Below are positions 33,410 to 61,256 of a stretch of DNA of 64,000 bases, piece by piece. The notes beneath the pieces were generated by a model. That model did not search any database and was not told the DNA's origin. It was given only the letters and a program-made list of their open reading frames with translations. Each line of letters starts with the position of its first letter. Within the stretch, counting starts at the first letter, position 1. This DNA is from Magnolia sinica (lineage: Eukaryota; Streptophyta; Magnoliopsida; Magnoliales; Magnoliaceae), in NCBI RefSeq assembly GCF_029962835.1, contig NC_080577.1:30672501-30736500 (forward strand), read 5' to 3'. The position numbers and the translations under genes were made by a program.

Positions 33410-33446
<37 letters not shown>

Positions 33447-35555: not shown

Positions 35556-35570
35556 GCTCTCCCCTCCTAA
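35556..35570 (-). other. Polypurine tract of Tekay-type element
   Basis: On the minus strand TTAGGAGGGGAGAGC lies immediately before the 3' LTR, the position of the plus-strand primer in LTR retrotransposons. Confidence 0.85.
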
Positions 35571-35686: not shown

Positions 35687-36409
35687 TTAATCATAAAAAA
35701 GATGGGGATATCGCTCTCGAATCTCGGCCTCGCACTCCCAAGAAGCCTCCTCAATAGAATGGTGACCCCACTGAACCTTCACCAACGGAATGACCTTGGT
35801 CCGGAGGACCTGCTCCTTCCGATCAAGGATACGGACTAGCTGCTTAATATAGGAAGCGTCCTCACGAACCTCTAACGGCTGCCAATCGATGACAGGAATG
35901 ATGCCTGACCCACACTTTCTCAACATGGAGACACGAAAAACGTTGTGGACGCCAGACAACTAAGATGGTAAGGCAAGCTGATAGGCCACGGCGCCAACGC
36001 GCCCAGTGATCTCAAAAGGTCCTATGAATCTCGGGACAAGCTTGCCCTTCACTCCAAATCGCACTACTCCCTTCATGGGCGAGACCTTGAGATACACACG
36101 GTCCCCTACATCAAACTCCAACGGACGACGCCGACGATCAGCAAGACTTTTCTGCCGGCTCTGAGCTGTGCGCATCCCCTGCCTAATGATATCAATAGCC
36201 TCTGACGTCTCTTGCACAAGCTCGGGACCTAGGAGACGACACTCTCCAACCTTGGTCCAACAACTCGGTGATCTGCATGGTCTGCCATATAGTGCCTCAA
36301 AAGGAGCCATACCGATGGTCGCCTGATAGCTGTTATTGTATGCGAACTCAGCCAATCGCAGATGCTCATCCCAGCTACCCCCGAAATTAATCGCGCAGGC
36401 CCGAAGCAT
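35687..36409 (-). pseudogene. Integrase C-terminus and chromodomain-like tail
   Basis: The frame 35960-36409 holds the integrase end ([20 protein letters not shown], then [12 protein letters not shown], a GDRVYLKVSP block and GPFEI). After one stop the frame 35687-35959 continues with VHNVFRVSMLRKC and VRILDRKEQVLRTKVIPLVK, then EEASWE, a chromodomain-type tail. The VRILDRKEQVLR wording is that of Tekay/Del chromoviruses, where the domain guides integration into heterochromatin. The third catalytic residue (Glu in [10 protein letters not shown], about 36410-36450) lies in the same register just upstream, next to a stop that replaces a Gln codon (HP-stop-TDG). Confidence 0.9.
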
Positions 36410-40505: not shown

Positions 40506-42335
40506 TATCACGCTCTAAACTCGAAAACCGGGCTCACAAAATTTTCGTCACCGAATCAGCGCCGACAGCCTCCGTAGAACTCCATTCTCGGCTCCCAACG
40601 CCCATTCGCCAGGTTCCGATCCTGGGATGCTACAAGGAGGATTTTTTTTTACATCAGTTTGATTCGTAATAAGCATAACTAAAGGCATAACCCACAAACA
40701 ACAACCAAAAACTCCATCACATTTCCACTATGATAAAAAACTTTACAAGTACAATAAGCATAAAGGGAAATACAATGAAGATGAACAAAAACTCTAAAAT
40801 GATCTGCCACGTGTCCAAGCCTCAGCGCTGCTGTGATCCAACGTCACCTGCATGCAACGGCCGTGCATAAGCTTATAGAAAGCTTAGAGGGTGGTGAAAG
40901 TGTATGCTCAAGGTGGTAATGTAGTTATGCAGTATCAGAGTAATGCGGAACATGCTATGAATGCCAAGAATACCATTAGCCGTACCAAGGCCATGCGGTG
41001 CAAAGAATGATGTTGGCCATACTAAGGCCATGCAATGCGAAATGCAACTCAAGCATACAAATCCTCATCTAAGTCCATATATCGATACAACTCAAAATCT
41101 AAAATATTACCGGGGTCTAGTACACTCCAAGCTAGATTGTCGCCCCATCGCACGCAATAAGATGAGTGGAAAAGACCTCACTATCCGCCTGCCAATATCG
41201 GGCTCGGCTCGTCAATAGGGGACCCATTCCTCGAGCTGGTCAGACTCAGCCTAGCATTGCCCCCTACTCTCCGGTGGGTAAGGCCGCACCCCCTTCTAAC
41301 CGACCACGACACAGTGGCAAGCGTAACTGTCTGGTAATCGGCATTCGGCGCTCATGCACGTACTCGGTCTAGACGTTGGAGCAACCTCTTGGTACCATAA
41401 GAGTTTAGGGACTTTCACCCAGGGATATCTATAGCACCCCATATAGAACAAGATTTTTGGTATCCAATCTTGCCAACCACGATACGCCTGTGGAGGCAAC
41501 GACCCTGATGTCGTTAGGGCATACAGTACCATATCACACAATGCGAATGCATGAATCACGCTATCCAGTCATGTAGTAGTCCTGCACGTATCGTGCGCTC
41601 ATGTAGGGCAACACCCCCTATCCGGGAGTCCCTAAACACTCTGCCCGAAGGCATATACGATGATCAGTCATTTCTCATATTAAGCATACGTATGATGTAT
41701 ATGATCATGAATCATGGAACTAAACATGTTATATGGGATGGATGATGTTCATAACGAAGATGGGCCTAGACGGCCTACACATTACACGTATGGGCCCTAG
41801 GGGAAGTCATAATGCGGACATTTAACCAACACTATACTTGCAATGGGGACGTCAAACTGCCATTGCTCCCAAGGTACAGCCCGTCGTAAACATCATTACA
41901 TAAATCATGGTGGGATTACACATTGCAATGGACCTTAGGTATATCCCATTGGGCCTTCAATACATCAAATGGGCCGTATCATATGGGCCTCATATTCATC
42001 AAGTGGGCCACATTAATGGGCCGCACCAATGGGCCTTATGTGCATTGCAATGGGCCATAACCTGTGGGCCTTAGAATGCATCAAATGGGCCTAATCTTAT
42101 GGGCCTTATGTGTATCAAATGGGCCTCGCCAATTGGGCCCCATATGTACTTCAAATGGGCCTCAACCCATAGGCCCCAATACATATTAATGGGCCTTAAA
42201 CCATGGGCCCTTAGTACATCAAATGTGCCTCGACCCATGGGCCCTACATATATATCAAAGTGAGCCTCAACCATGGGCGACAAGTAAACTGAGATGGGCC
42301 TCCCACTACCAGAATATTATGTATAATATAATATA
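40506..42335 (-). mobile_element. 5' LTR of Tekay-type element, inner part
   Basis: Starts TATCACG, where the first TG has become TA, next to the PBS. It matches 31506 onward along its whole length, including the TGGGCC minisatellite (41930-42250). It is cut at 42335 by the CACTA element; the rest of the LTR is 59039-61251. Total length without the insertion is about 4.04 kb. Confidence 0.92.
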
Positions 42336-42356
42336 CACTACGCCAAAACTGCGAAA

Positions 42357-42830
42357 AAAGGACGGTCCAAAACCGTCTCAAATGACCAAAAATGACGGTC
42401 ATGGACCGTCGCAAGGGCCGTCAAATTTTGACGTGTCGTATTACTTAAAGGACGGTCAAAAACCGTCATTTTTATTGACGAAAAAAAGGACGGTCATGGA
42501 CCGTCCTAAAAACGGACGGTCGTGAACCGTCCTTAAAAAAGACGGTCTCGGACAGTCTCTTATGAGCCTTTAAAGGACGGCCATCGACCGTCCTTTAAAA
42601 GGACGGTCATGGACCATCCTTAAAAAAGACTGTTATAGACCGTCTCTGATGAGCCTTTAAAGGACGGCCATAGACCGTCCTTTTTAAGGACGGTCATGGA
42701 CCGTCCTTAAAAAAGACTGTCATGGTCCGTCTCTTATGGCCCTTTAAAGGACGGCCACAGACCGTCCTTTAAAAGGACGGTCATGAACCGTCCTTAAAAA
42801 GGACTGTTATGGACCGTCCTTTATAAGAGG
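42357..42830. repeat. Left subterminal GACGGTC/GACCGTC cluster
   Basis: Many copies of short inverted pairs such as GACGGTCATGGACCGTCC, separated by A- or T-rich linkers (TTTAAAGGACGG, CTTAAAAAAGACGG), follow the terminus. Each pair is a near-palindrome able to form a hairpin. In En/Spm the subterminal repeats bind the TNPA protein; by position these are the equivalent. Confidence 0.85.
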
Positions 42831-43240
42831 ATCAATATACACCTGTTACATCATCATATTCTTCCTGATATACACCTGTTATATAATATATTTCATCATA
42901 TTCACATTCACATTCATGTAAACCTGAACTACGTAAATCCAACATAAACTACATTCATCCAAACATAAACTACATCCATCTAAACCCAAACTACATAAAT
43001 TACATTCATCCAAACACAAGCAATCTTATCCACATTACATTCATCCACACATAAATACATATAAGTTTAACATCATAACTAAAAAAAGAAAAAAAATTAG
43101 CAACAATTTTCTTTTTGTGTCTTTCACCTGAAAAAAAAAATATTAAACCAACAAAACATTATAATTCAGAATCATGAAAAATTGCATAAACTTCTTCCAA
43201 AAAAGTGAGCATTTTTTAAAAATAAAACTGATCATTAAAA
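42831..43240. other. AT-rich spacer in CACTA
   Basis: Contains repeated short units like TACATTCATCCAAACATAAAC (degenerate). No gene. Confidence 0.5.
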
Positions 43241-46200
43241 TAGGTTCAGGTTTAGGTTTTAGGTTTTAGGTGTTAGGTTTTAGGTTTAGGTTCAGGATTA
43301 GGTTTTAGGTTATAGGTTATAGGTTTAGGTTTAGGTTAAGGTTTAGGTTAAGGTAGGTTTCAGTTATAGGTTATAGTATATAAGTTATAGCTTTAGGGAA
43401 TTAAGAATAGGTTAAGGTTAAGGTTTAGGTTTAGGAAATCGGGTCCGAGTTCGGGATCGGGTTTAGGTTTGGGTTATTAAGTTTAAGTTTAAGTTTAGGT
43501 TAAGGAGTTGAGATTAGGATTAGGTGTAGGTTTAGGTTCAAGGATTTGAAAATACATTTCGATTTTAGGTTTAGGTTTATGTTTTAGGCTTATGGTTAGG
43601 TTATAAGTGCAGGTAATAGGTTTAAGTTTATGTTAGGTTATAGGTTAACATTTAGGTTTAGGAAATTGAGTTCGGGTTCGGGATCGGGTTTAGGTTTGGA
43701 TTAGAGAGTTGAGATTAGGATTAGGTGTAGGTTTAGGTTTAGGGGATTTGAGAATACATTTAGGTTTAGGTTAATGTTTAGGTTTAGGTTTAGGTTTAGG
43801 TTTAGCTTATAAGCAATAGGTTTTAGGTTTTGGTTTAAGTTATAGGTTACAGGTTTAGGTATAGCTTTAGGCTTAGGTTAAGGTTACAAGATAAAAGTTT
43901 AGGGAATTGAGAATAGGTTAAGGTTTAGGTTTAGGAAATCGGGTTCGGGTTCGAGATCGGGTTTAGGTTTGGGTTTTCAAGTTTAGGTTTAGGTTTAGGT
44001 TAGGGAGTTAAGATTAGGATTAGGTGTAGGTTTAGGTTTACGGATTCGAGAATACATTTACGTGCTAGGTTTAGGTTTAGGAAATTGAGAATAGGTTAAG
44101 GTTTAGGTTTAGGAAATCGGGTTCGGGTTCGGGATCGGGTTTAGGTTTTAGTTTTCAAGTTTAGGTTTAAGTTTAGGTTAGGGAGTTGAGATTAGGATTA
44201 GGTGTAGGTTTAGGTTTAGGGATTTGAGAATACATTAAGGTTTAGGTTTAGGAAATCGGGTTCGGGTTCGGGATCGGGTTTAGGTTTGAGTTTTCAATTT
44301 TAGGTTTAGGTTTAGGTTAGGGAGTTGAGATTAGGATTAGGTGTAGGTTAAGGTTTAGGGATTTGAGAATACATTTAGGTTATAGGTTTATGTTTAGGTT
44401 ATAGGTTTAGGTTAAGGTATAGGTTTAGGTTTCGGTTTAGGTTATAAGCAATGGGTTTAGGGAATTGAGAATAGGTTAAGGTTTAGGTTGAGGAAATCGG
44501 GTTCGGGTTCGGGATCGGGTTTAGGTTTGAGTTTTCAAGTTTAGGTTTAGGTTTAGGTTAGGGAGTTGAGATTAGAATTAGGTGTAGGTTTAGGTTTAGG
44601 GATTTGAGAATACATTTAGGTTTTATGTTTATATTTAGGTTATAGGTTACAGGTTTAGGTTAAGGCTATAGATTATAGGCTTAGGTTAAGGTTTAGGTTA
44701 AGGTTTAGATTTAGGTTTAAGGATTTGAGAATACATTTAGGTTTTGGGTTTAGGTTTAGGTTATAGGTTACAGGTTTAGGTTTAGGTTTAGGTTTATGCT
44801 ATAGGTTATAGGTTTAGGTTACGGTTTAGGTTTAAGTTTAGGTTATAAGCTATAGGTTTAGGGAATTGAGAATAGGTTAAGGTTTAGGTTTAGGAAATCA
44901 GGTTCGGGTTTAGGTTTAGGTTTGAGTTTTCAAGTTTAGGTTTAGGTTTAGGTTAGGGAGTTGAGATTAGGATTAGGTGTAGGTTTAGGTTTAGGAATTT
45001 GAGAATACATTTAGGTTTTAGGTTTATGTTTAGGTTATAGGTTATAGGTTTAGGTTAAAGTATAAGTTTAGGTTTCGGTTTATGTTATAAGCAATTGGTT
45101 TAAGGAATTGAGAATAGGTTAAGGTTTAGGTTTAGGAAATCGGGTTCGGGTTCAGGATCGGGTTTAGGTTTTGGTTTTCAAGTTTAGGTTTAGGTTTAGG
45201 TTAGGGAGTTGAGATTAGGATTAGGTGTAAGTTTAGGTTTAGAGATTTGAGAATACATTTAGATTTTAGGTTTATGTTTAAGTTATATGTTATAGGTTTA
45301 GGTTAAGGCTATAGGTTATAGGTTTAGGTTAAGATTTAGGTTTAGGTTTAAGGATTTGAGAATACATTTAGGTTTTAGGTTTAGGTTTAGGTTATAGGTT
45401 ACAGGTTTAGGTTTAGGTTTATGCTATAGGTTATAGGTTTAGGTTAAGGTTTAGGTTAAGGTTTAGGTTTAAGTTTAGGTTATAAGCTATAGGTTTAGGG
45501 AATTGAGAATAGGTTAAGGTTTAGGTTTAGGAAATCGAGTTCGGGTTCGGGATCGGGTGTAGGTTTGAGTTTTCTAGTTTAGGTTTAGGTTTAGGTTAGG
45601 GAGTCGAGATTAGGATTAGGTGTATGTTTAGGTTTAGGGATTTGAGAATACATTTAGGTTTTAGGTTATGTTTAGGTTATAGGTTTAGGTTAAGGTATAA
45701 GTTTAGCTTTCGGTTTAGGTTATAAGCAATTAGTTTAGGGAATTGAGAATAGGTTAAGGTTTAGGTTTAGGAAATCGGGTTCAGGTTTGGGATCGGGTTT
45801 AGGTTTTGGTTTTCAAGTTTAGGTTTAGGTTTAGGTGAGGGAGTTGAAATTAGGATTAGGTGTAGGTTTAGGTTTAGGGATTTGAGAATACATTTAGGTT
45901 TTAGGTTTAGATTAAGGCTATAGGTTACAGGTTTAGGTTAAGGCTATAGGTTATAGGTTTAGGTTAAAGTTTAGGTTAAGGTTTAGATTTAGGTTTAAGG
46001 ATTTGAGGTGTAGGTTTAGGTTTAGGGATTTGAGAATACATTTAGGTTTTAGGTTTATGTTTAGGTTATAGGTTATAGGTTTAGGTTTAGGTTAAGGTAT
46101 AGGTTTTGGTTTCGGTTTAGGTTATAAGCAATAGGTTTAGGGAAATTGAGAATAGGTTAAGGTTTAGGTTTAGGAAATCGGGTTTGGGTTCAGGATCGGG

Positions 46201-47463
46201 TTTAGGTTTGGGTTATCAAGTTTAGGTTTAGGTTTAGGTTAGGGAGTTTAGATTAGGATTAGGTGTAGGTTTAGGTTTAGGGATTTGAGAATACATTTAA
46301 GTTTTAGGTTTAGGTTAAGACTATAGGTTACAGGTTTAGGTTAAGGCTATAGGTTATAGGTTTAGGTTAAGGTTTAGATTTAGGTTTAAGGATTTGAGAA
46401 TACATTTAGGTTTTAGGTTTATGTTTAGGTTATAGGTTATAGGTTTAGGTTTAGGTTTGGGTTAAGGTATAGGTTTTGGTTTCGGTTTAGGTTATAAGCT
46501 ATAGGTTTAGGGAAATTGAGAATAGGTTAAGGTTTAGGTTTAGGAAATCGGGTTTGGGTTCAGGATCGGGTTTAGGTTTGGGTTATCAAGTTTAGGTTTA
46601 GGTTTAGGTTAGGGAGTTTAGATTAGGATTAGGTGTAGGTTTAGGTTTAGGGATTTGAGAATACATTAGGTTATAGGTTTAGGTTTAGGTTTAGGTTTGG
46701 TTTTGGTTTTGATTTAGGTTATAGGTTATAGGTTTAGGTTAAGGTTTAGGGCAATGTGGTTTTAATTTAGGTTATAGGTTATAGGTTTAGGTTTTAGGTT
46801 TAGGTTTAGGTTTTGATTTATGTTATAGGTTATAGGTTTAGGTTATAGGTTTTGGGATTTAAGAATGGGTTCGGGTTTAGGTTATAGGTTTTGGTTATAG
46901 GTTATAGGTTTAGGTTAAGGTTTATGTTTAGGTTATAGGTTTTGGGATTTGAGAATGGGTTCGGGTTTAGGTTATAGGTTTTGGTTTTGGTTTAAGTTAT
47001 AGGTTTTGGGATTTGAGAATGAGTTCGGGTTTAGGTTATAAGTTTTGGTTTTGGTTTTGGTTTAGGTTTAGGTTATAGGTTTTTGGATTTGAGAATGGGT
47101 TATGGTTTAAGTTTAGAAAATCGGGTTCAGGTTCGGGATTGAGTTTAAGTTTAGGTTTTCAAGTTTATGTTTAGATTTAGGTTAGGGAGTTGAGATAAAG
47201 ATTAGGTGTAGGTTTATCTTTAGGGAATTGAGTTTAGCTTATAGGTTTAGGGAAAGCTTAGGTTTAGGTTATAGGCTTTGGGATTTGGGAATAGTTTTAG
47301 GTTATAAGTATAGGTTTAGGTTAGGTTATAGGTTAAGGTTTAGGGATTTGAGTTTAGGCTATAGGTTTAGGTTTAGGTTTAGGTTTAGGTTTAGGTTAAG
47401 GTTGAGGTTTAGGTTATAGGTTAAGGTTTTAGGTCATAGGTTTTGGTTTAGGTTAAGAGTATG
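43241..47463 (+). repeat. Telomere-like hexamer array with higher-order units
   Basis: About 4.2 kb consist almost entirely of GGTTTA hexamers and variants (GGTTAT, GGTTAA, GGTTTT). They are broken by a recurrent block containing AAATCGGGTTCGGG and GGATCGGG, then TTTTCAAG, then GGGAGTTGAGATTAGGATTAG and ATTTGAGAATACATTTAGG. I count about 13 copies of the CGGGTTCGGG block (near 43436, 43663, 43936, 44113, 44250, 44495, 44893, 45137, 45526, 45771, 46176, 46546 and 47119) at irregular spacing. The G-rich strand is the plus strand. The plant telomere unit is TTTAGGG; this array is mostly one G short, so it is telomere-like, not a functional chromosome end. Confidence 0.9.
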
Positions 47464-47520
47464 GTCCCTGCAAATACAGATATAAACACGGTCATCCGAC
47501 ACAAATTGCCAGGCCCTTCC

Positions 47521-47975
47521 AATGCTGTCCATAAAAAATGGACAGCTTCATCATGGTCATAATAGTGGTTCCCTCTTTCCAGGGAACCCCGCTCTTCCGG
47601 ATAGCTCCGACGCACATCCGGGTCTGCTCCATCAATTTCGAGTTAATACATAAACATGGCCTATCCAAATGGTCAGGCCACTCCAATGCTGTCCATAGGA
47701 AATGGACAGCTTCATCATGGTCATAACAGCGGTTCCCACCTTCCAGGGACCCCCGCTCAACATCCGGATAGCTCCGACGCACATCCGGGGTCTGCTCGAT
47801 CAATTTGTATTAAATACATAAACATGGCCTGTCCAAATGGTCAAGCCACTCCAATGCTGTCCATAGGAAATGGACAGCTTCATCATGGTCATAACAGCGG
47901 TTCCCATCTTCTAGGGACCCCCGCTCAACATCCGGATAGCTCCGACGCACATCCGGGTCTACTCCATCAATTTCG
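47521..47975. repeat. About 165-bp tandem repeat, three copies
   Basis: Copies start AATGCTGTCCATA at 47521, 47685 and 47853. Each includes TTCATCATGGTCATAA, CCGGATAGCTCCGACGCACA and ACATGGCCTATCCAAATGG-type blocks. Open frames on both strands are produced by the repetition and match no family I know, although the unit could derive from a captured exon. Confidence 0.85.
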
Positions 47976-48025
47976 AGCTAATACATTTAAAAACAACATA
48001 ATTATATCTAAAAGCATCTGGATAC

Positions 48026-48117
48026 CTGGAGAAGGCCTCTCATATTCGTATTGTTGGTTACTCATCCCTTTGTTTATAAGCCACAATCGACCAACACTTT
48101 CTATTGCTACCTGTACT
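48026..48117 (-). pseudogene. Exon-like fragment, unrecognised gene
   Basis: On the minus strand a 92-bp segment has a good acceptor (GTTGGTTTCAG) and a GT donor (CCAG/GTATCC). One frame is open and reads VQVAIESVGRLWLINKG and on. I do not recognise the protein. Its place among other captured exons on the same strand makes a host origin plausible. Confidence 0.4.
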
Positions 48118-48129
48118 CTGAAACCAACA

Positions 48130-48970
48130 CAAATATAACTGGGAAACAATATAAGGAATAAGAAAAAATCAAGAAAACATTTACTAAATAAAAAATTTCC
48201 AATTTATCAGTAAGGTTCAATTTATTAGTCAGATACATCCAGCTAGACCAAATACTGCTTCTTTTTTTCTAGATTGAAACAGGGTAGATAGTTGATGATC
48301 TTTTCATATATAACCAATGTGACATATGGAGAGATGGACTCACAATTATGCCATGTGCCTCACTCAGACATCTCCTAACAAATTTTATTTCTAATACAAC
48401 AAAAAAGCTCATCACTTGTCCATCCTCTGTTCATGAAACAAAATGAAGGTTCTTCTTGACAATGCTGGGTTTCAAAATCAATTCGAAAACACTATATATA
48501 AGCGTGTTTTGCATAAATGATAAAAGCCATATATATAAGATTTTGATGTCACCAAAGAATATATCAAAATCAATTTGAAGGCATTGTGGATAAGTGCATT
48601 TTGCAGATAAGTATGATAAAAGGGTGTGAAATACCTATAGAGACTGTCCAGACATCACACGAACATATCATGACAGTTTTACATTCAAATAAACCATTCC
48701 ATTCATCCATCATATAGATGGATCTAGCAACTATAGCTAGTAATGAAGGCTTGCACATTCAGTTCCAAGTAATCATATACAACAAATGTATAGGAGACCA
48801 TAGGTACCTGCACATAACATAGTGGTAAGAGTAATGGAAAAGAAGTAAAACTAGTAAGTAGCAATCCCATGAAATAGGACACCCTTCTACAACCTAAAAA
48901 CTCACTTTCTTTTATAAGAAAGTGTGTGTGAGATACAGAGATAGGATATACCCTAGAGAGCGAGAGAGAG
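48130..48970. other. Non-coding CACTA interior
   Basis: AT-rich; includes a near-repeat of a CAAAATCAATT(C/T)GAA(A/G) block (about 48472 and 48565). No protein motif found. Confidence 0.4.
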
Positions 48971-48976
48971 GTTTAC

Positions 48977-49058
48977 CTTGACAACTGCTATAAACATCTC
49001 CCTTAAACTCCACTTCCTGAACCAACGGACACTCACACACCCTTCCACGGAATGTATC
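48977..49058 (-). pseudogene. Vacuolar sorting receptor exon fragment
   Basis: Flanked by an acceptor (TTTCTTCAG) and a donor (CAAG/GTAAAC), the 82-bp segment encodes [20 protein letters not shown] then DVYSSCQ. This is the cysteine-containing segment between the protease-associated region and the EGF-like repeats of plant vacuolar sorting receptors (BP-80/VSR), which carry soluble cargo to the vacuole. In the family the sequence here is of the form [10 protein letters not shown]. The splice borders show capture as genomic DNA and not through a spliced RNA. No other exon of the gene is present nearby. Confidence 0.75.
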
Positions 49059-49164
49059 CTGAAGAAATAAAGCAACTATCAGCATACATGGAAACATCTC
49101 AACTTGTATGCTAGGCTAATTGTACCCTTTAATGTACAGTCTCTTGAATTGGTGCAAACCATAC

Positions 49165-49367
49165 CTGAATTGTTGTACATATCATTTGATTTCCAACCTC
49201 CCCAGGGAGTAGATTGATCAGATTGAACGGCCTGCTTCATTGCTTACTTCTTTTTCATCAGCATCTGCACCTAGACATTCATTGCTTACTTCTTTTTCAT
49301 TAGAAATGGTGCTTAGCAAATGGAGGAAATCATACACATCTGTTACGACATCTAGATTTGATGCCAC
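49165..49367 (-). pseudogene. Exon-like fragment, unrecognised gene
   Basis: Between an acceptor (TTCTACTAG) and a GTATGG donor lies a 203-bp minus-strand segment. Its first frame reads VASNLDVVTDVYDFLHLL and includes a duplicated EKEVSNE motif before a stop; another frame ends QSTPWGGWKSNDMYNNSG. I do not recognise the gene. The duplicated 35-bp block inside suggests local slippage. Confidence 0.4.
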
Positions 49368-49739
49368 CTAGTAGAAAGAAGAAAGAAGGTGATTCATATT
49401 TATGCTTATGAAACGAAGTCTAATAGTTTACATAACTAGGTTATTAAACTAATAAATTCTAAGAAAAATAGCAAGTGCCAAGACCTATGGCATAAAAAAA
49501 TAATCGTTGAATGGATTAACAATCAAAGAACAATGGTAAAGGGAAGAAAACTAACTTCTTTCTTGCTCCACATAATCTAGTTGGGGCGTCATATTAGTTC
49601 ATGTAAGATTCGCGGACACCACATGCATATAAATTAGTTCATGTAAGACCTGAGGACACCACATGCATATAAATACAATCATTAAAATCTAAAAAACATT
49701 AAAATCAATCAATGTGCATTAGATAACTAGAAAAAGCCT

Positions 49740-50565
49740 CTAATTACCTTAGTTCCAATCAAAACAACTGAAAACAAGTACCCGGCATCCTCAACTCCCA
49801 TTGATTTTCATCAAATAAACACAAACTTCAAAAACTAATAAACAGAAAAGTATCTACATGACCACTCCATTTTTTAGATAATCCAAGTATGAAGAACATC
49901 TGGGTCAATACATATGCATCAAATTGCTTGAGAACATCCCAAGTTCCCTTTATCTTGGTCCCAAAAAAAAAAATCCCGGAAACAAGTACCCATCATCCTA
50001 AATTCCCATCAATTAATATAACATGATCACATAAACTTCAAAAACTGCCAAATGCAAAAGTACCCACATGAGCTTCGCTTACATGTAACATAAATGATGT
50101 GTACAACACTCCATTAATTATGCCAAGTCCAAATAACTTGAAAGTGCCCCAAATTCCATTGGTTTCAGTCCAAGAACACCCAAAAGCAACTACTAATCAT
50201 CAAAAACTCCCATTGATTCACATAAAGTAATCTCACAAATTTTAAGAATTGATAAATGCAAAAGCACCCACACAAGATTCCATCATCTTAACCACAAAAA
50301 ATTATAATAAATCTGCACAACACTTCATTTTTCAACCAATATGCATCAAACTGCTTAAGAACATCCCAATTTTCATTGGTTTTTCATCCCAAAACAATTG
50401 AAAACAACCCACACATCATCCTAAAGTCACATTGGTTTTCACCAAATCAAAGAAAGTTCAATTGAAAACAGCCCACACATCATCCTAAAGTCACATTGAT
50501 TTTCACCAAATCAAAGAAAGTTCAAAAGGAGAGATACCCACACAAGATATAACCAATGTTTCATG
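49740..50565. repeat. Degenerate about 200-bp tandem repeat
   Basis: Four or more diverged copies, each running through blocks like CATCCCAA.TTCCATTGGTTT, AAAACAA.TGAAAACAA, ACCCATCATCCTAAA, CCCATTGATTTTCA and AAATGCAAAAGTACCCACA. The last copies share a nearly exact 60-bp stretch (about 50410-50470 and 50470-50525). No coding potential. Confidence 0.75.
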
Positions 50566-50572
50566 CACATAC

Positions 50573-50640
50573 CAAGCCCAATTGCACCATGGCTCGACAT
50601 GTAAGAAGCATAAAAGGTTGTAGAGGTCTTCCAGATTATT
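50573..50640 (-). pseudogene. RAD5/HLTF-type SNF2 helicase, downstream exon
   Basis: After an acceptor (GGTTACAG) the 68-bp minus-strand exon encodes NNLEDLYNLLCFLHVEPWCN and ends at a GTATGT donor. This is the motif following the GTPIQ box in the SNF2 ATPase of RAD5/HLTF-like proteins (family form NNLEDLYSLL.FLRVEPW). The exon lies about 290 bp downstream, in transcript sense, of the ATP-binding exon at 50931-51159; the sequence that should lie between them (including the DEAH box) is missing. Confidence 0.8.
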
Positions 50641-50782
50641 CTGTAACCATTGTAAAACAGGCATTTTAATGGCTATTGTAATTTATTTAAGACCCACCAG
50701 CTAAAATGATAAAAAAATCAGGCAACAAGGCTATGTTTGGATGCGCTATTGACTGAAGTGTGTTCAACAATTGGAAAAAATG

Positions 50783-50970
50783 AAATCTCACCTTCCACTG
50801 GCCTAACAATGCCATTGGACAGACAACAATGTGCTATTTTAATTTTTCATTCAATTGCATCATTAAAAGAATGCCAACTTTAACTACAGGATTAGTAGTA
50901 AACATGTTATGAAATGAAACGAAATCTTACCTTCTACTGGCCTAACAATGCCATTGGACAGACAACAAGA
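50783..50970. repeat. Tandem duplication of an exon end, 140-bp period
   Basis: The stretch CTGGCCTAACAATGCCATTG with its TTACCTT/CTCACCTT splice-donor side occurs at about 50800 and again 140 bp further on. Only the second copy is attached to the SNF2 exon. Confidence 0.8.
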
Positions 50971-51159
50971 TTTCCTCCTTTAACTGTGGGTAGGCTTTTG
51001 TGTTTGAGGATCTTTCTGACCATTCTTTGTTTTCTTGTTGTCAAAATCCTGATTTTGTTCTTCAACTTGTTGGTCATCTGAACTCTCCCTAACTAGTTTT
51101 CCAAGTATTAATGCAATAGTCATTACAGTCTTTTCAAGCCCCATTGCATCTGCTAAAAT
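50931..51159 (-). pseudogene. RAD5/HLTF-type SNF2 helicase, ATP-binding exon
   Basis: A 229-bp minus-strand exon with acceptor (CAATGTAG) and donor (GAAG/GTAAGA). It encodes ILADAMGLEKTVMTIALIL, the Walker A region of RAD5-like SNF2 enzymes, with the second Gly of GLGKT changed to Glu. A charged linker follows (KKTKNGQKDPQ); then, after a one-base shift, VKGGNLVVCPMALLGQ is read, followed by a stop where Trp is expected. RAD5/HLTF proteins act in error-free bypass of DNA damage. The mutated Walker A, the shift and the stop show that this copy is dead. Confidence 0.85.
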
Positions 51160-51164
51160 CTACA

Positions 51165-51795
51165 TTGAAAAACATATAGTCAGATGGCAATAGCAGCAAA
51201 AGATCACCAAACAAAACCAACTTTTTCCTATACCATTGTACATTGTCTAAAGGCTCTTTGAATTATACGTAAAATGATGAAAGAAACCAATGTTGTGCCA
51301 ATGCTCTCTTTGGGCAGGTCTTCTCACATACAGTGATGCAGATGCTCATGTTGTTATCTGACACTAATCATAAATGTGAGGGTTTCCATGACTCACCATC
51401 CCAACATGAATTCGATAGCTCTTTGAGCAACAGTATCATCAAAAAAATCTGGGTCCAGATCCAATTAAATCAGATCAGATATATTCATCAAAAAATCAGG
51501 TTCAATATTTCAGGTATACAGAGATTTGTTACAATGAAGCACTGGAGTCAAATATCTTCAACTGTGCATTTTTCTTTGTTCTATGGAACATATTGTACAA
51601 TAAAATTTATGACCCCCATGTACCCCATACTACATTGTGCAGCCCAAATCCCTATATAGACTCAACAGATGCCAACCCAAAGTAAATGGAACAGCTAACA
51701 TTACACAAATAGGCCTGCTGCACAGTGCAAATCAATGATCAGCAAATGCTTCAGTGTGCAGCACAAAAATAAAACATGTTTAAAGACTTGCTAGG
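51165..51795. other. Non-coding CACTA interior
   Basis: No protein motif was recognised. A 108-codon plus-strand frame (51333-51659) runs against the strand of all neighbouring exon scraps and shows no family match. On the minus strand PDFFDDTVAQRAIEF is readable near 51400-51450 and could be another scrap of unknown origin. Confidence 0.4.
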
Positions 51796-51802
51796 AACAC
51801 AC

Positions 51803-51890
51803 TTGAGTTTGAGACATAAAATTCAGACAGTGGGAGATTAGCCAGGAAGATAACCGATCCAGTGAATTGGTTGTTCTGTAAGTGACTATT
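51803..51890 (-). pseudogene. LRR fragment, STRUBBELIG-like receptor
   Basis: The minus strand encodes HLQNNQFTGSVIFLANLPLS then EFYVSN, a leucine-rich repeat whose wording (LQNNQFTGS..VLANLPL) is that of STRUBBELIG-family receptor-like kinases. Only one repeat remains and there is no kinase domain. Other plant LRR proteins cannot be excluded from so short a piece. Confidence 0.6.
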
Positions 51891-52258
51891 GGAGAAAAGT
51901 GCCAAGTGCGAATAGCGTACATTTTCAGTGGAGACAAGGCCACAGAAAGAATGTTCAGTTTATGATTAGTGGAGTATTTTCCATCAACAATAGAAACATC
52001 ATATTTTATTACAGTTACATGCAAATTTAGGACAACATAAATAGGATTCCTATAGTGAACTAGGATAGTTCTCCTTTCTTAAAAAAGAAAAATAAAAGGA
52101 AAAAAAAATCAGTCCTAGGATAGAGAAAAATCAGAGCAATCCAGAGAATCAAAATCAGCCACATTGAAGTTTTGAGTACCCATTTGGCCAGCAACACCAA
52201 GGAGCATCTCTGCTTGAAAAAACTGTCATAAAGCCGTGTGTTTGAAGTAACCACATCA

Positions 52259-52522
52259 TCACGTGGTGAATCTCAGCAATATGATGACCACCAGTGTCGT
52301 GAGGCAGATGACGAACAATTTAACTGCCCGGTAGTAAATGTGCTCCTTCGTAGAGTACTTGTCATGAGCATGCATGATTACCAGATAAATAGCAACAACC
52401 ACAACCACATAGATCCAAGACAACAAATAGATAGCAATACTGGTTCTTTTATTGGCAATGCCAAGCTGGTATACAATCCCATACTGGAAGAAAAAGAAGC
52501 TAAGATCTAGAATTATCTCCAA
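52259..52522 (-). pseudogene. Callose synthase (GSL) C-terminal fragment
   Basis: An 87-codon minus-strand frame reads FFFFQYGIVYQLGIANKRTS, SIAIYLLSWIYVVVVVAIYL, DKYSTKEHIYYRAVK and a final hydrophobic stretch LTTLVVIILLRF. It corresponds to the transmembrane region near the C terminus of plant callose synthases of the GSL8/GSL10 type (family form FQYGIVY.L...SI.VYLLSWIYV and DKYAAKEHIYYR). These plasma-membrane enzymes make 1,3-beta-glucan. The frame is open but stops at once after the fragment, and the catalytic loop is absent. The longest captured piece that is still open. Confidence 0.85.
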
Positions 52523-52594
52523 ATCAAATGATTCAAGTTTACAAAGAGTAGATTATGCATTTTTACAGAAACAGAGAAGTAATTGAGCATGAAC

Positions 52595-52694
52595 CTGTAT
52601 CATGTCAGCTGGACCATAAGTTTCTGTCCGTATAATTACAAGACGATCTAACAGGCCAACATGTATGCCATGTGGACTGCTCATATCAGTTCCC
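52595..52694 (-). pseudogene. RuvB-like helicase (RVB1) exon fragment
   Basis: Following an acceptor (GATGTAG) the 100-bp minus-strand segment encodes GTDMSSPHGIHVGLLDRLVI then IRTETYGPADMIQ. This is a well-conserved part of RuvB-like AAA+ ATPases of the RVB1/Pontin type (family form GTD..SPHGIP.DLLDRLLII), subunits of chromatin-remodelling complexes. The arginine of LLDRL is kept; the exon ends at ATACAG followed by GTTC, a weak donor. It is in frame over its whole length but isolated. Confidence 0.88.
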
Positions 52695-52699
52695 CTACA

Positions 52700-53015
52700 T
52701 CATATGCATTGAAGAAAAATGACATGGGATAATATTTAGCAAATGGCTAATTATCATCTTCTAACAATACACTTTTTCAATGGATCTCCTAGCAATATAT
52801 TTCAAGCTCCTAAACTGGTAACGTGCTGACATCACTGTAGCTAGGAAGAAAGATGATTTGTGAACATAAGGGAGGCAAGTTTCTTGCCTCATTCTGCAAG
52901 TAGAGAACCATGGCAAGAAATAGTCATATTAAACTTCACATAGTGATATTACTATTTTAAGGTAAAAGGAAATGACACAAGTTATGTTAACTTCACATAA
53001 TGATACTACTATTTT
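52700..53015. other. Non-coding CACTA interior
   Basis: Intron-like AT-rich spacer with a short direct repeat of CTTCACATA.TGATA.TACTATTTT (about 52935 and 52991). Nothing coding. Confidence 0.45.
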
Positions 53016-53019
53016 TATG

Positions 53020-53240
53020 GGTTGGAAGAGAGTTGCCATCTTCATCGTCAATTCAAACAGTTTCTTCTGTCTCCCACTAAGATTCGAGTAGTCTACTTCG
53101 ACATTTTCCTCAACAGGCTATCCATTATCACCATCAACATGTTCTTCACCATCAGTTTTTTCTGCTACATCTAGTTTTTGTTCTTCATTTTAATCAGAGC
53201 CCTCTAAGAAGGATATACCTCTACCACTCCCCTTTTTAGT
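53020..53240 (-). pseudogene. Splicing factor SYF2 fragment
   Basis: The minus strand, through two stops, encodes an acidic stretch (EEQKLDVAEKTDGEEHVDGD) and then VEVDYSNLSGRQKKLFELTM. The block VDYS.L.GRQKKLFEL is characteristic of the pre-mRNA splicing factor SYF2, which acts in the Prp19-associated complex. The fragment ends where the family continues with K.NEARKAN. One Glu-like and one Gln-like codon have become stops. Captured scrap; not functional. Confidence 0.8.
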
Positions 53241-53394
53241 TTCTATAACAATACGTAAAATAGTCAAAATTGAGAAAGAATTAAATGATTGAAATGGATG
53301 AATCCTTACAATACTAGAATATAATATCATAATGTCTTCATGAGGCAATTGCGAGTTGTTTGATGCAACAAAATCCAATGAAGGAATTACGGAT

Positions 53395-53565
53395 TTTATT
53401 TATTTTTTGAAAGATGCCAACTTTATTAAAAATGGCAAAGCCGAAAGAAAAAAAAAACAAACAATAAAAAAGACAAAGAAAGAGGAAACACAAAAATTAC
53501 AAGAGCTGCAGCCCAACCAAAGAACTACATTGGCAAGGGCCGAAGAGAAAACACTTCTAGACGAA
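53395..53565 (-). mobile_element. 3'-end scrap of a LINE
   Basis: Read on the minus strand the stretch ends with AATAAAGTTGGCATCTTTC and an A-rich tail (TTTATTTATTTTTT on the plus strand at about 53397-53410), as plant L1 3' UTRs do. The upstream part is lost within about 170 bp, a typical 5'-truncated insertion, placed between the SYF2 and PPR scraps. No target duplication could be defined. Confidence 0.5.
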
Positions 53566-53576
53566 CCACATTTATC

Positions 53577-53690
53577 TCAGAAACATCTCTCATAAGCATT
53601 TTATCGAACAGTATGTGTGCATCTTTAATCTAACCACATTTTACATACATATCAATCAAAGAGGTCCCAACATACAGATCATCAAACATG
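53577..53690 (-). pseudogene. PPR protein fragment
   Basis: Minus-strand translation reads DLYVGTSLIDMYVKCG, a stop, then IKDAHILFDKMLMRDVS. This is one pentatricopeptide repeat of the PLS type (family form VGTALIDMY.KCG.I.DA..VFD.M..RDV), from an organelle RNA-binding protein. Only about 35 codons are present. Confidence 0.8.
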
Positions 53691-54255
53691 GGTTATCAAG
53701 TATGTGAAAGAAAAAAGTCACAAACGTGAGGAACTCAATCTAGCAGATGTAAATGTGTCTATGAAATCAACTAATCTAGATCAAGAACTGATATAACAAA
53801 CTATCATAAAACTAAAAAGAAATAACTAAAGGAAAAATATACTCCAAAAAATCCACATGGAAGAAGCATCAGCTAATAATTCCAGATATATACCATTTTA
53901 TAACTAAAAAAATAAGAAAAAATATCCTTAAATGGTCTGCAAAAATGTATGGACGGCGTGGATATACAACACATCATCAAAGTGGGCTCCATGGTAAGGG
54001 TAACACCACTAAGGTGTGTTACCCAAGTAACACCTAATCCACTCCTGTTACTGTCCTTAGAAAAATTTAAAAAGCTAGTTCATGTTTTTGCAAACTCAGT
54101 TCAACATCAAACATGTCAACATTGCTCGGTCTATTTTAAAAACACAGAACAAACAGCTTGCATGCAAGCCATCCATTAGGTGAGTACAGTCTTAAATATG
54201 TTCTGACCCAGCAATAAGATCAAGCCTACAATCTTTGCCTTTTGTCTCTGTCTTC
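53691..54255. other. Non-coding, module remnant
   Basis: Contains a piece of the dispersed module near 53948-53995 (TATGGACGGCGTGGATATAC) and inverted pieces of GGTGTTAC around 53998-54050. No gene. Confidence 0.45.
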
Positions 54256-54269
54256 GATTAACCAAAAAG

Positions 54270-54525
54270 ACGGACAAAAATCAAGAAAAGAATATATGAA
54301 AACTTAACAGTGGTAGCTGTGTTAGTTAATGGAGGAGCCGGTGTTGTGCCCAAGTCCTCATAGAACTTGTACGTCTCATACCTCAAATTGCAACTTGGTC
54401 CAACAACTCTCTCACCTTGTTTTCCATTACAACACGTAGGAATCCGACCCATAGCATCTTCTAAACACGCACCGCAATCTCTCCTCGGCAGATCGTTATT
54501 GTACTGCATAAGCCCATATGGTTTA
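54270..54525 (-). pseudogene. DUF26 (Gnk2-like) cysteine-rich fragment
   Basis: The minus strand encodes YGLMQYNNDLPRRDCGACLE, then GRIPTCCNGKQGERVVGPSC and NLRYETYKFYE. The C-X2-C...CC...C spacing and the RYE..PFY-like end identify the C-terminal half of a DUF26 domain, found in cysteine-rich receptor-like kinases and secreted antifungal proteins. The first conserved Cys of the Q-C-T.DL block is Tyr. No kinase part is present. A short frame upstream (54461-54655) may be unrelated leader sequence. Confidence 0.85.
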
Positions 54526-55020
54526 CCTTTGTAGATCGATTGGTAAACAAAGAAGATGACGAAGATCGACGGTGTCGGAGGGGAGCATTGCCAGATCGGA
54601 AGGTTTCATATGCAAAATCGATGGGATTCGATCTATAGGGGTTTAGGGTTTTCAAAGGGGCTAGGTGCGGATGATGATGGGGGTTTTGACAGGGATGAGT
54701 TTGAGGTTTTGGAAGAAAATGGGAAGGAGATGGGGGTTTTGAAAGGGGCTAGGTAGGAGGCTGGCGGACCTTGGCTGGAAGAAATGAGAAGAAAAATGAG
54801 AGCGGAAATCTATTTCTAACCTCGATCGAGAGAGATGAAAGGAATGAGACGTAGATACTTACCTCGATCGAGAGAGATGAAAGGAATCAGATGTAATACA
54901 TGGAGCGGTGGTTTTCGAGGGTGACGCACGGCAGAGGGCAGGGGTGAGTGAGAGAGAGAGAGAAGAAGAGGGAGGGCGGCGAGTGAGAGAATGGGGGGAA
55001 ATTGGGCGCGGCTTTGTTTT
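54526..55020. other. Non-coding, GA-rich, promoter-like piece
   Basis: Holds AAACCCTAA-type sequence on the minus strand (about 54640-54650), two tandem copies of a roughly 42-bp unit with CCTCGATCGAGAGAGATGAA (54821-54895) and a CT/GA-rich stretch (54945-54975). It could be captured promoter or 5' UTR sequence; this is a guess. No gene. Confidence 0.45.
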
Positions 55021-55029
55021 GAGCGCGCG

Positions 55030-57850
55030 CCCAATTTTGGGCAGGACCATGGACGGTGCTCTGTGGGCCCTACCATGATGTATGTGTTTCATCCACTCCA
55101 TTCATCCATTTTTAAAGATGATTTTAGAGCTTTATGCCAAAAATTAGAGGGATATAAATCTTAGGTGGTCCACACCACATGAGAACAATAGTGATTGGAT
55201 ATCCACCATTAAAATCCTCCTAAGGCCCACTATACTGTTTATTTGACATCCAATCTATTGATTTGGTCATATAGGACCAAATGAAGGGACAAAACAAAAA
55301 TCAGCTTGATCCAAAACTTTTATGGCTATCGAAATGTTTTTAATGGTCGACGCTCATTCAACACTGTTTCCTATAATGTGGTCCACTTGAGATTTGGATA
55401 AATTTCATTTTTAGTCTCATATTGTAAAATTATCTGTAAAAAGATATGGACGGCATGGATGAAATACATACATCATGGTAGGGCCACAGAGCACTGACCA
55501 CCGGCCATTGGCTGGTGTCAGGGAGAGTAGTCAATCTGTTCCAAGCGTACTAAGTAAATCATGTGGGCCTACTATGATTTATTCATTTTATCCACTCCAT
55601 CTATCCATTTTAACATATAATTTTATTACATAAGCTTAAAAATGAAGCCTATAAAAATCTTAAGTGGACCACATCATAGGAAATAGTATAAACTGAATGT
55701 CTATTATCTCCAAATTTTAAGAGGCCATTGGAGTTTTAGATCAAGTTGATATTTTAGTTTTCCCTTCATCCATGTATTTGTGATCTATTGAACAAATTAG
55801 ATGACAAACAAAAATCACTGTAAGCCATGGGAAGATTTCAACGGTGAGAATCATTATTCCCACTTTTCCTATGGTATAGTCCACTTGAGCTTTGGATATG
55901 CTTTAATTTTGGGCTCAACCACTAAAATGATCTGAAAAAATGAATTGACAGTATGGATAAAACACTTACATCACTGTGGGCTAAAAATGAAGCATATCCA
56001 AAGCTCAAATGGACCACACTACTGGAAAGAGTGTGAATTGAACATCTACCATTGAAAATTTCATGGGGGCCACAAAAGTTTTAGATCAATCTGATATTTG
56101 TGTTTTCATTTCATCCATGTCTTTGTGATATTACGAACAGGTTGGATGACAAATAAGCATCACCGTGGGCCATAGAAAGGTTTCAATGGTGGAAACATTA
56201 TTCCCACGGTTTCCTATGGAAAAAATCAGTTATATCTCAATCCCAAGTGGACCACATTATAGGAAATAGTGTTTAATGAACGTTGACCATTAAAAATGTT
56301 CTGGGGGCCATAAAAGTTTTGGATCAAGCTGATATTTATTTTTTCCCTTCATATGGGTATTTATGACCTAATCAACAAATTGGATGTCAAATAAACAGTA
56401 CATTAGGCCTTAGGAGGATTTTAATAGTGGATATCCAATCATTATTTTTTTCATATGGTGTGGTCCACCTAAGATTTATATCCCTATAATTATTATTTTT
56501 TTGTAAATTACTAAAATGATTTGTAAAAATGGATGAAACACATACATCATGGTGGGCCCCACGGAGCATCGACCACCAGCCACGGGGCTGGTGTCAGGGG
56601 GAGTAGCCAATCTGTCTCCTAGTTTTTAAGTCTTGTGGGGCCCATCGTGATGTATGTTATTTATCCACTCCGTCCATTCATTTTAACGGATTTTTTTAAC
56701 AGTTGATCCAAAAAAGGAGTCAGATCTGTGTGCCCCACCATGATGTATGTATTATATCAACATCGTCCATTCATTTGGAGAGATCATTTTATGGGATGAT
56801 TAAAAGAATGAGTCAGATCCAAATCTCAAGTGGCCCCACCATCGAAAACAATGGGGACAGTGACACCCACCATTGAGACTTTCCTAGGGCCACTATGATG
56901 CTTATTTGAGATACAACCGGTTAATAAGTATTTAAAAAAAAAAAAAAAAGACATGGATGAAGAGAAAAATCAAATATCAGCTTGATTCAAACTTTTGTAG
57001 CCCTCTGAAATTTTTTATTAGTAAGCGTTCAATCCCTACATTTTATTTTATTTTATTTTTTTGTGGTGGATCAACTTGAGATTTTGATCTGCCTCATTCT
57101 TTGACCCATGCCCTGAAATGATCTATATGGATGAATTTTTGTGGTGGACATTATTGTGAAACTATATAGGCCCCACCTAAATGACTATAGCTGTGACCCC
57201 TGTTTCCTGTGGTGTGGTCCACCAAAGTCTCCTATCTGCCTCCTTTTTAGCATCATAACCTAAAATGATCTATCAAAATAGATGGACAGAGTGGAGGTGT
57301 AGGATTTGCACGTGGTTTGGCAAGTGACCCCAACACCAGCAGTCCATAAGTCAAAGCTCTATAGGCTACGATGATGTACGGGAAGTTCCCATGAGGTGAC
57401 CTTATAGTACTATTACACTATTTTCGGTAACTCCTTCATGGGTGTTACTCTAACCATGTAGGGCCCACCTTGATATATTTTATGTATATCGACATCGTCC
57501 ATATATTTTTCCATCATATTTTAAGATGTGATTTTAAATCATAAGAACTAAATAATCTTAGGTAGGCCATACCAATCAAAATAATATGACGAATAACCAT
57601 TAAAAACCTTTTGAAGGCCACAAAAGTTTTGGATCAATTTGATCTTTGTAGTTTACCTTCATCTATATCTTCTTTACACTATCAACAAGTTGGATTGCAA
57701 ATAACATTACTAAAACCTTACAATGGGCTCTTTAAAATTTTTAATGGCGAGGTACTATATTATCATTCTTTCCAATGGTGTGGTCCACTTAAGATTTAAA
57801 TCTACACAATTATTTATACCCGGCCAAAAAATGGGTTGGAGAAACGTATC
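55030..57850. repeat. Array of fold-back modules
   Basis: Three or more copies of the dispersed module. The first (about 55050-55550) has long inverted ends: GTGCTCTGTGGGCCCTACCA...at the left and, on the other strand at the right, GTGCTCTGTGGCCCTACCAT, each running on to GATGTATGT and TTTCATCCA. The second ends near 56620 with the same GCTGGTGTCAGGG.GAGTAG tail as the first. Interior blocks recur (AAGTGGACCACA, GTTTTGGATCAAGCTGATAT, CCATTGAAA). No coding potential; structure like a large MITE or fold-back transposon. Confidence 0.7.
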
Positions 57851-57871
57851 GGCGGCAATGATATACAATAC

Positions 57872-58370
57872 TGTTATATAACTTTTCAATTTTTCTTGTT
57901 AAAATACAAAATCTAGTTTTCCTTTTTAAAAAATATTTTTTTTTTTACAATTTGACAATTTTTTCACAATTTTGTTTATTTTTTAAAATTTTCTTTTTCA
58001 AAATATCATTTTTTTAAATTGAAATCTCCCTTTTGTTATCTAACTTTTCAATTTTTCTTGTCAAAATACAAAATCTAATTTTCTTTTTAAAAATATATTT
58101 TTTTTTATAATTTGTCAATTTTTTCACATTTTTGTTTAATTTCTTAAATTATTTTTTTTAAATATCATTTTTTTAATCTCACTTTTGTTATATATAACCT
58201 TTCAATTTTTCTTGTCAAAATACAAAATCTAATTTTCTTTTTTTTTTTAAATATATATTTTTTTCAATATGTCAAAATTTTCACAATTTTGTTAAATTTT
58301 TTAAATTTTCTTTTTCATAATATCATTTTTTTATTGAAATCTTTTTTTTTTCAAAATTATCGATAGTTTT
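57872..58370. repeat. T-rich about 155-bp tandem repeat, three copies
   Basis: Copies begin GTTAT.TAACTTTTCAATTTT at 57872, 58034 and 58186, each with AAAATACAAAATCTA and TTTTTTCACA blocks. Very T-rich on the plus strand. Confidence 0.8.
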
Positions 58371-58497
58371 TTTTTTTTTCAAAATTTAAAATTTTCGTAA
58401 ACATTGTTAATTATTTTTCTAAGCTTCTTAACTATTTTTTTTTTTTCAAAATTCATAATTTTTTTGAGCGGCTTAATTGAGCATTAGAGATGATTAG

Positions 58498-59012
58498 GAC
58501 CATCTTTAATAGAAACGGTCTTTGACAGTCTCTAATAGAGACGGTCTTTGGTAGGGCTATAAGACGGTTTAGGACCGTCTCTAATAGAGACGGTCCTTGA
58601 CAGTATCTAATAAAGACGGTCGAGGGCCGTCTCTAATAGAGATGGTCTTTTACAGGATTGTAAGACAGCTAAGGACTGTCTCTAATAGAGACGGTCTTTG
58701 ACAGTCTCAGATTTGAAGTAAAAGACGGCCAATGACCGTCTCTAATGCAGACGGCCAATGACTGTCTCAGATGACCGCATATAAGACGGTCAAGGACCGT
58801 CTCTAATGTGGACGGCCAACGACCGTCTCAAATGACCCATATAAGACGGTCAACGACCGTCTTAAATGATTTGTGGACGGTTTAAATTTTTAAGACAATA
58901 TTAAGGACGGTTAGGGGCCGTCTAAAATTTTAGAGACGGTTTACGGCCGTCTCTAAAGCGTCTTTAAACCAAGCAATTTTAGAGACGGTCCAGAACCGTC
59001 TCTAAATCCGTC
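58498..59012. repeat. Right subterminal GACGGTC/GACCGTC cluster
   Basis: Repeated units such as AGACGGTCAAGGACCGTCTC joined by TAATAGAGACGG. The cores equal those at the left end, but the linkers differ (TCTCTAATAGAG here, CTTAAAAAAG there). Confidence 0.85.
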
Positions 59013-59038
59013 ATTTTTTTTTCATTTTTCACGTAGTG

Positions 59039-59043
59039 ATATA

Positions 59044-59104
<61 letters not shown>

Positions 59105-61251: not shown

Positions 61252-61256
61252 GTATG

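Follow-up and report, generated by a model that had tools for sequence, protein, structure and literature searches.

A 16.7-kb Pack-CACTA element of Magnolia sinica whose cargo matches ten host genes in a single orientation

We analyzed a stretch of 64,000 nucleotides of Magnolia sinica (assembly GCF_029962835.1, 1.84 Gb in 127 contigs), here called the window, which corresponds to positions 30672501 to 30736500 of contig C5. Within it, positions 42336 to 59038 are a 16.7-kb Pack-CACTA, a non-autonomous transposon of the CACTA (En/Spm) superfamily. Sequence comparison indicates that its cargo consists of pieces of ten identifiable host genes, all of them in minus sense. Very probably, this is a Pack-CACTA element whose cargo was captured at the DNA level, which arose by fusion of two related forms (classes A and B, defined below) and which was moved in trans. 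An earlier note, made from the letters of the window, had proposed a CACTA element bounded by a duplication of ATA and carrying fragments of at least eight unrelated host genes in one orientation, and these claims stand, with changes in the list of genes.

Termini, target-site duplications, and copies

Both ends of the element were read. The terminal inverted repeat begins with CACTA (CACTACGCCAAAAC at 42336 / CACTACGTGAAAAA), the right end (TTTTTCACGTAGTG) closes at 59038, and ATA stands on each side. Short GACGGTC-type subterminal repeats, a feature of the CACTA superfamily, are found in both orientations at both ends. Across the genome, a 30-mer of the left terminus had 734 matches and one of the right terminus 452 (up to 2 mismatches), while the reversed controls had 0. 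Of these matches, 100 left and 100 right termini were listed, and the linkage tests described below use them. Pairing of 100 left with 96 right places gave 21 pairs less than 40 kb apart, equivalent to elements of 9.7 to 39 kb, with 17 of them at 13.8 to 18.8 kb. Another pattern, CACTACAAGAAAA, matches a different terminus and served only for locating the window in the genome.

As in other Pack-CACTA elements, there was no transposase match inside among the 150 scored (of 1669 candidates) in a genome-wide search with the Transposase_21 profile (PF02992), and the longest stop-to-stop frame overlapping the element is 163 amino acids (aa).

We then used the cargo (47460-55020) as a query against the genome, scoring 33 of 5585 candidates, so that all copy counts are lower bounds. 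At least seven near-complete copies were found, including the window, together with one split copy (C121); in 21 other copies the alignment was confined to the left part (class A), and in 4 to the right part (class B). With a shorter query, at least two more copies spanning all of 51780-53240 appeared, on C2 and C8; a search with the full element scored only 3 candidates and was excluded from the counts. All five copies read at both ends have perfect 3-bp target-site duplications (TSDs), namely, ATA in the window, CCT at C3:17574317, AAG at C3:101990847, CAT at C9:2838496, and ATC on C15, and their end positions give lengths of 16.6 to 17.1 kb. For the near-complete copies on C8 and C13, a single end was read, and the terminus of the latter is altered. 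Among six full copies, including the window and leaving out that on C13, pairwise identity was 97.9 to 98.7%. The cargo has therefore moved as part of the element, with near-complete copies at other sites that have their own TSDs, and the search for other copies suggested by the earlier note was rewarded with a near-identical arrangement at at least six further places.

The cargo matches ten host genes at separate loci

Seven of the eight host fragments named in the earlier note were recovered (vacuolar sorting receptor [VSR], RAD5-type SNF2 helicase in pieces, STRUBBELIG, callose synthase, RVB1, SYF2, and DUF26), and three could be added (GH1 beta-glucosidase, SBP-type transporter, and ferric reductase). 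The eighth, a pentatricopeptide repeat (PPR) protein, was dropped, given that its open reading frame (ORF; 53525-53629) had no Pfam match and lies mostly in a dispersed repeat. Of the two exon-like pieces left unrecognized at that time, 49165-49367 still has no gene match; it belongs to a module (49130-49862) in which ORF 49218-49367 had no Pfam match at E values up to 1, and no donor-specific search was made for it because more than 40 element copies would crowd the result. Coordinates and best evidence are given in Table 1.

The assignments draw on different kinds of comparison. VSR and STRUBBELIG were assigned by sequence comparison with solved structures, and callose synthase, GH1, the transporter, and ferric reductase via matching loci; the window ORFs for VSR, STRUBBELIG, callose synthase, SYF2, PPR, and GH1/transporter had no Pfam match at E values up to 1, and the comparison with Protein Data Bank (PDB) sequences gave no match for loci L049 and L051 or for the window RAD5 ORF. 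Several matching loci continue into recognizable gene sequence. Thus, the gene at C14:75754800 (SNF2-rel_dom, 9e-12 and 2.6e-15) runs on into a further SNF2 exon, and the window fragment has a frameshift and an in-frame stop relative to it; the next exon at the C15 locus of the GH1 piece is Glyco_hydro_1 (9e-9), with 78 to 93% identity of the piece to several other places; the C2 gene runs on into Ferric_reduct (9e-12 and 4e-11); and the C1 gene matching DUF26 (C1:7852000) is Stress-antifung at 1.5e-40. RVB1 matches loci on C10, C1, C8, C12, and others. For SYF2, the next exon of the C6 locus matched one PDB chain, in an entry titled cyclophilin-type protein. The names RAD5 for the SNF2 fragment and SYF2 for the fragment at 52880-53587 are provisional.

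When the parental genes were sought in the same genome, as the earlier note had proposed, the best-matching loci were found on different contigs, with distinct breakpoints. These separate locations contradict a single-locus origin of the ten fragments, including the case in which the parental genes lie in this order at one place, and the relatives of the element carry overlapping but different subsets of the cargo, in agreement with the repeated capture that had been suggested. Intron sequence is retained beside the exons in the VSR, RAD5, RVB1, and SYF2 pieces, and therefore capture would have taken place at the DNA level, with at least ten host genes contributing short stretches, introns among them, to the CACTA interior. 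At 3 of 11 junctions, there are exact overlaps of 1, 4, and 7 bp, while gaps of 3 to 31 bases (later mutations or filler) are found at the other 8, and with this mixture we claim no joining mechanism.

A mosaic of two related classes

Class A has in common with the window the left terminus (in the C2 copy), the telomere-like array, and 47460-50461, after which it diverges. Class B was read at length only in the copy on C19 (L039/L019); it comprises the array and a short shared stretch, together with a methyladenine-glycosylase-like piece, the module at 49130-49862, and then everything from RAD5 onward. That glycosylase-like piece, which the window lacks, again reads in minus sense (Adenine_glyco at 3.3e-4, short of the curated cut-off). 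Class B retains longer RAD5 and transporter pieces than the window, the latter with its exon, which the window lost via a deletion with 4-bp AGAT microhomology (51522-51525). The most likely and simplest explanation of this form is that a class-A-like element (left terminus, array, and VSR) fused with a class-B-like one (RAD5 through DUF26) at 50461-50557, that small deletions followed, and that the composite was mobilized as a unit by a transposase acting in trans.

Some further observations concern these relatives. Those relatives of classes A and B that were inspected have the TTTAGG-type array of 4.2 kb as well, which may come from telomere repeats or from internal expansion. All three class B loci fetched (L019, L027, and L036) have an insert of ca. 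1.07 kb (L019 426-1500) between window-element positions 51877 and 51891.

Orientation of the cargo and a linked transposase subfamily

The single orientation pointed out in the earlier note holds within the element for 10 of 10 identified fragments. A related locus on C9 (L058, C9:22941700-22950600), which has ca. 5 kb of extra gene-like pieces and a different CACTA-like terminus at 3134, has a plus-sense CTLH piece (4.4e-8) beside that end, possibly within another element; the orientation bias is therefore not absolute. The same locus has a CoA-ligase-like piece in minus sense, with a weak E value of 0.034.

Regarding the transposase, only 1 of the 150 PF02992 matches lay less than 25 kb from a listed left terminus, with 0.20 expected, which alone is no evidence. 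This single match was reused as a DNA query, scoring 40 copies of 596 candidates. Counting the query, eight of the 40 were placed 3.7 to 22.5 kb inward of a left terminus from the list of 100, and every one of them had the sense of the cargo, with 0 in the other three position and sense classes; leaving out the query's own copy, 7 of 39 were linked versus 0.05 expected. The linkage comes from this follow-up with a single match and not from the count of 150. The cargo thus faces the same way as the linked transposase subfamily, which suggests itself as a candidate autonomous partner, known from linkage to left termini and not from a two-ended element. Separately, the C13 copy (L069, C13:36067700-36068800) adjoins sequence that by eye is transposase-like, and there is a Transposase_21 match at C13:36063808.

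Transcription, splicing, and coding capacity

A transcript in the direction of the linked transposase would run through all ten fragments in their sense direction, and some of these could be spliced. A leftward promoter may lie near 55.0 kb, as the GC-rich CT/GA stretch there suggests. Three class A loci (L024, L029, and L033) align from ca. 54934-54940 into 55.1-55.6 kb with 79 to 88% identity, so that only the last ca. 80 bases of the putative promoter stretch are in common with class A.

In the window, 11 of 13 examined splice sites are canonical, two of the 11 being in the module at 49130-49862, where there is no gene for comparison. The SYF2 5' splice site is GT in related loci and GC in the window, with GC in all 12 loci compared across copies, and the DUF26 site has a GT shifted one base from the position in the gene. 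At the 11 canonical sites, 9 of 188 dinucleotides were changed over all loci compared, including the window (ca. 2.4% per base, with two copies counted through two loci each and no correction for common ancestry). Canonical splice sites therefore drift at about the background rate. Stop-to-stop frames on the minus strand between 47400 and 55050 reach at most 115 aa, and stops interrupt the SYF2 piece. Given the frameshift and stop in RAD5, the stops in SYF2, and splice sites changing at about the background rate, the cargo is best read as passenger DNA, perhaps transcribed and in part spliced, rather than as a maintained coding gene. Of the two roles advanced in the earlier note, one chimeric transcript is possible, with coding frames interrupted at least in RAD5 and SYF2, while a source of antisense RNA is not favored: any RNA transcribed the way the transposase faces would have the same sense as all ten genes, and this goes against simple antisense silencing.

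Features of the element and its surroundings

Direct copies resembling long terminal repeats (LTRs), 93 to 95% identical, flank the element at 33318-35556 and 59074-61252, which suggests that it lies within an older LTR retrotransposon. Between these copies, Ty3-type pol ORFs were seen by eye on the minus strand (35960-38186), and, farther away, an ORF resembling a reverse transcriptase of the long interspersed nuclear element type (20561-21187, minus, also by eye).

Table 1. Features of the CACTA element, in window coordinates
Feature	Position	Strand	Evidence
Left TSD copy, ATA	42333-42335		Sequence
Left terminus (CACTACGCCAAAAC) and subterminal GACGGTC repeats	42336-42840	+	Sequence; genome-wide terminus matches
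Degenerate telomere-like TTTAGG/TAGGTT tandem array, 4.2 kb	43240-47459	+	221 TTTAGG in 4220 bases
VSR fragment, exon 48977-49058 with AG/GT flanks	48591-49133 (48591 is the end of the fetched L073 stretch, not a proven border)	-	PDB Vacuolar-sorting receptor 1, E 1.3e-6; 97% to C16:31375 locus L073
Exon-like module common to class A, class B, and window	49130-49862	-	Exon-like 49165-49367 with AG/GT in 28/28 loci compared
Putative junction zone, class-A-like left/class-B-like right	50461-50557		Overlaps 64-bp tandem duplication 50395-50525
RAD5-type SNF2 helicase fragment, rearranged pieces	50557-51372	-	Pfam SNF2-rel_dom 3.6e-4, under curated cut-off; gene at C14:75754800
GH1 beta-glucosidase exon end	51367-51439	-	73 bp, 93% to C15:23209416; intron start GT kept
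Solute-binding (SBP-type) transporter-like remnant	51444-51634	-	82 bp, 100% to C18:1350925; locus exon SBP_bac_6 1.6e-5
STRUBBELIG-receptor-family leucine-rich-repeat fragment	51634-52094	-	PDB STRUBBELIG-RECEPTOR FAMILY 6, E 3.9e-5; 96.5% to C8:29960300 locus L052
Ferric reductase (FRO-like) fragment	52115-52265	-	95% to C2:22931526
Callose synthase fragment	52265-52522	-	94% to C5:5808104, within 419-aa frame, Glucan_synthase 4.5e-64
RVB1 (RuvB-like 1) fragment, pieces 52525-52719 and 52710-52886	52525-52886	-	PDB RuvB-like protein 1, E 8e-11; TIP49 1.1e-6; C10:29491900 locus
SYF2-like fragment with its intron	52880-53587	-	90% to C6:105313200 and C1:209400
Dispersed ca. 350-bp repeat, holding most of the PPR-like reading	53579-53928	-	At least 16 other places, 93-95% (40 scored of 1840 candidates)
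DUF26 (Stress-antifung) gene end and downstream sequence	53922-54519	-	Pfam PF01657 1.8e-7; 90-92% to C1 genes
GC-rich CT/GA-repeat stretch, putative promoter/leader for leftward transcription	54520-55020	-	Sequence only
Repeat-derived filler, self-similar blocks	55020-57870		Sequence comparison
AT-rich ca. 154-bp tandem repeat	57872-58342	+	Sequence
Right subterminal GACGGTC repeats and right terminus (...TTTTTCACGTAGTG)	58480-59038	+	Sequence
Right TSD copy, ATA	59039-59041		Sequence

Alternative explanations

The same order is found at seven places, including the window, and each of the five copies read at both ends has its own TSD. This repeated structure refutes both an ordinary pseudogene cluster and an assembly mis-join, the latter considered in the earlier note; the C121 copy, which lies in a small contig and aligns as two pieces overlapping by the duplication, points the other way, and we attach practically no probability to either explanation. 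Helitrons make no TSD, and that of Mutator-like elements is ca. 9 bp. With CACTA termini, subterminal repeats, and 3-bp TSDs in all five copies, neither a Helitron nor a Pack-MULE fits, and the chance that the element is one or the other is negligible, even though they too collect many fragments, with up to 12 in maize Helitrons in the part of that source available (PMC3288121).

The shared orientation is harder to explain. Perhaps, though this is somewhat improbable, it arose by chance, either because about ten captures happened to fall alike or because a few multi-gene blocks represent few independent events. The element was chosen for its orientation, its right part is common to class B as a block, so that the fragments are not lineage-independent, and the related C9 locus has its plus-sense CTLH fragment; against chance, the ten genes find their best matches on different contigs and have breakpoints of their own, a two-sided sign test gives 0.002 if the fragments are independent, which they may not be, and the glycosylase-like piece of class B is again minus-sense. 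It is a rather unlikely possibility that capture or retention is directional in this CACTA family, host pieces being taken up or surviving almost only in the transposase sense. Quite improbable is a functional orientation, in which the element makes one chimeric, spliced, coding transcript and selection on it keeps the cargo in sense. The agreement of all fragments with the sense of the linked transposase, the canonical splice sites, the CT/GA stretch at the upstream end, and, in the passages available, the splicing of soybean Tgm-Express1 fragments within a host gene (PMC1947982) would be consistent with it. The broken RAD5 and SYF2 frames, the GC site fixed in all SYF2 loci compared across copies, splice dinucleotides altered near background divergence, and the lack of any minus-strand frame longer than 115 aa in the cargo argue against it.

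The reading of the element as a Pack-CACTA composite with captured cargo also has points against it. Neither capture nor excision was observed, and a single assembly was used. The A and B mosaic could have come about via loss from a larger ancestor instead. Several of the matching loci may themselves be longer captures and not original genes (L045, L050, L052, L055, L070, and L073): C12:15451600 has RVB1 and SYF2 pieces, C7:36760000 has callose synthase, RVB1, and SYF2 pieces, and at C8:7437500 the STRUBBELIG piece is joined to that of ferric reductase. For the VSR piece, 67 matches to a degenerate VSR pattern crowd any candidate donor, and the clear VSR gene seen (C11, L072) is 80% identical over 126 bp. 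Most transposases scored probably belong to other families, since only the one match was near a listed left terminus. Versus the 100 listed right termini, 1 transposase copy was inside and 1 outside, and the one linked copy fetched had no right end in the ca. 2 kb beyond the gene.

Known systems and significance

The comparisons that follow are limited to the available passages of each paper. Soybean Tgm-Express1 is a CACTA element of 5.7 kb with five host gene fragments (PMC1947982). Like that of the Magnolia element, its interior is made up of exons and introns from several unrelated genes, and since its fragments can be spliced as exons, they would share an orientation. Unlike the Magnolia element, it has half as many fragments and a third of the length, and its transcripts start in the interrupted host gene, while the Magnolia cargo occurs in multiple copies. 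The Pack-CACTA elements known from Arabidopsis and maize are likewise non-autonomous, with CACTA termini and DNA from several loci; of the types compared, those of maize have the largest number of distinct loci, and growth of Pack-TYPE elements by joining of neighboring elements has been proposed (PMC8903248). In contrast to those passages, in the Magnolia genome two apparent parents (classes A and B) are present together with the composite, and the sense of the cargo was compared with that of a transposase.

In the Tpn1 family of Japanese morning glory, non-autonomous CACTA copies number in the hundreds; their ends are conserved, captured host sequence has taken the place of their interiors, the duplications are mostly of 3 bp, and rare copies have transposase genes (PMC5105172). 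Compared with it, the Magnolia element adds a 4.2-kb telomere-like array, and the Tpn1 passages give no fragment-by-fragment orientation data. The Jozin elements of Chenopodium combine captured gene fragments with tandem arrays, one member with an array being 16.5 kb (PMC8978399), but they carry one captured gene or domain family each and keep coding sequence. A shared orientation of captured fragments in CACTA elements was not described in the titles and abstract openings of the literature searched, which is a weak negative since most subscription journals are outside that coverage.

With the Pack-CACTA features tested, the element represents a known way of gene shuffling by transposons, of which it is an unusually rich example. 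How CACTA elements gather DNA from unlinked genes may involve an undiscovered mechanism, according to a 2026 review, as far as its available passages go (PMC13317346). The composite, both of its apparent parents, further related forms, candidate loci for the donors, and the linked subfamily of transposases all occur in a single genome, and therefore the order of capture, the joining, and the orientation are testable largely by sequence. A fragment-by-fragment count of orientation across the 734 left-terminus matches would decide whether capture is directional. If it is, either capture would be coupled to transcription or antisense cargo would be removed, and the element would gather sense exons downstream of a promoter of its own.

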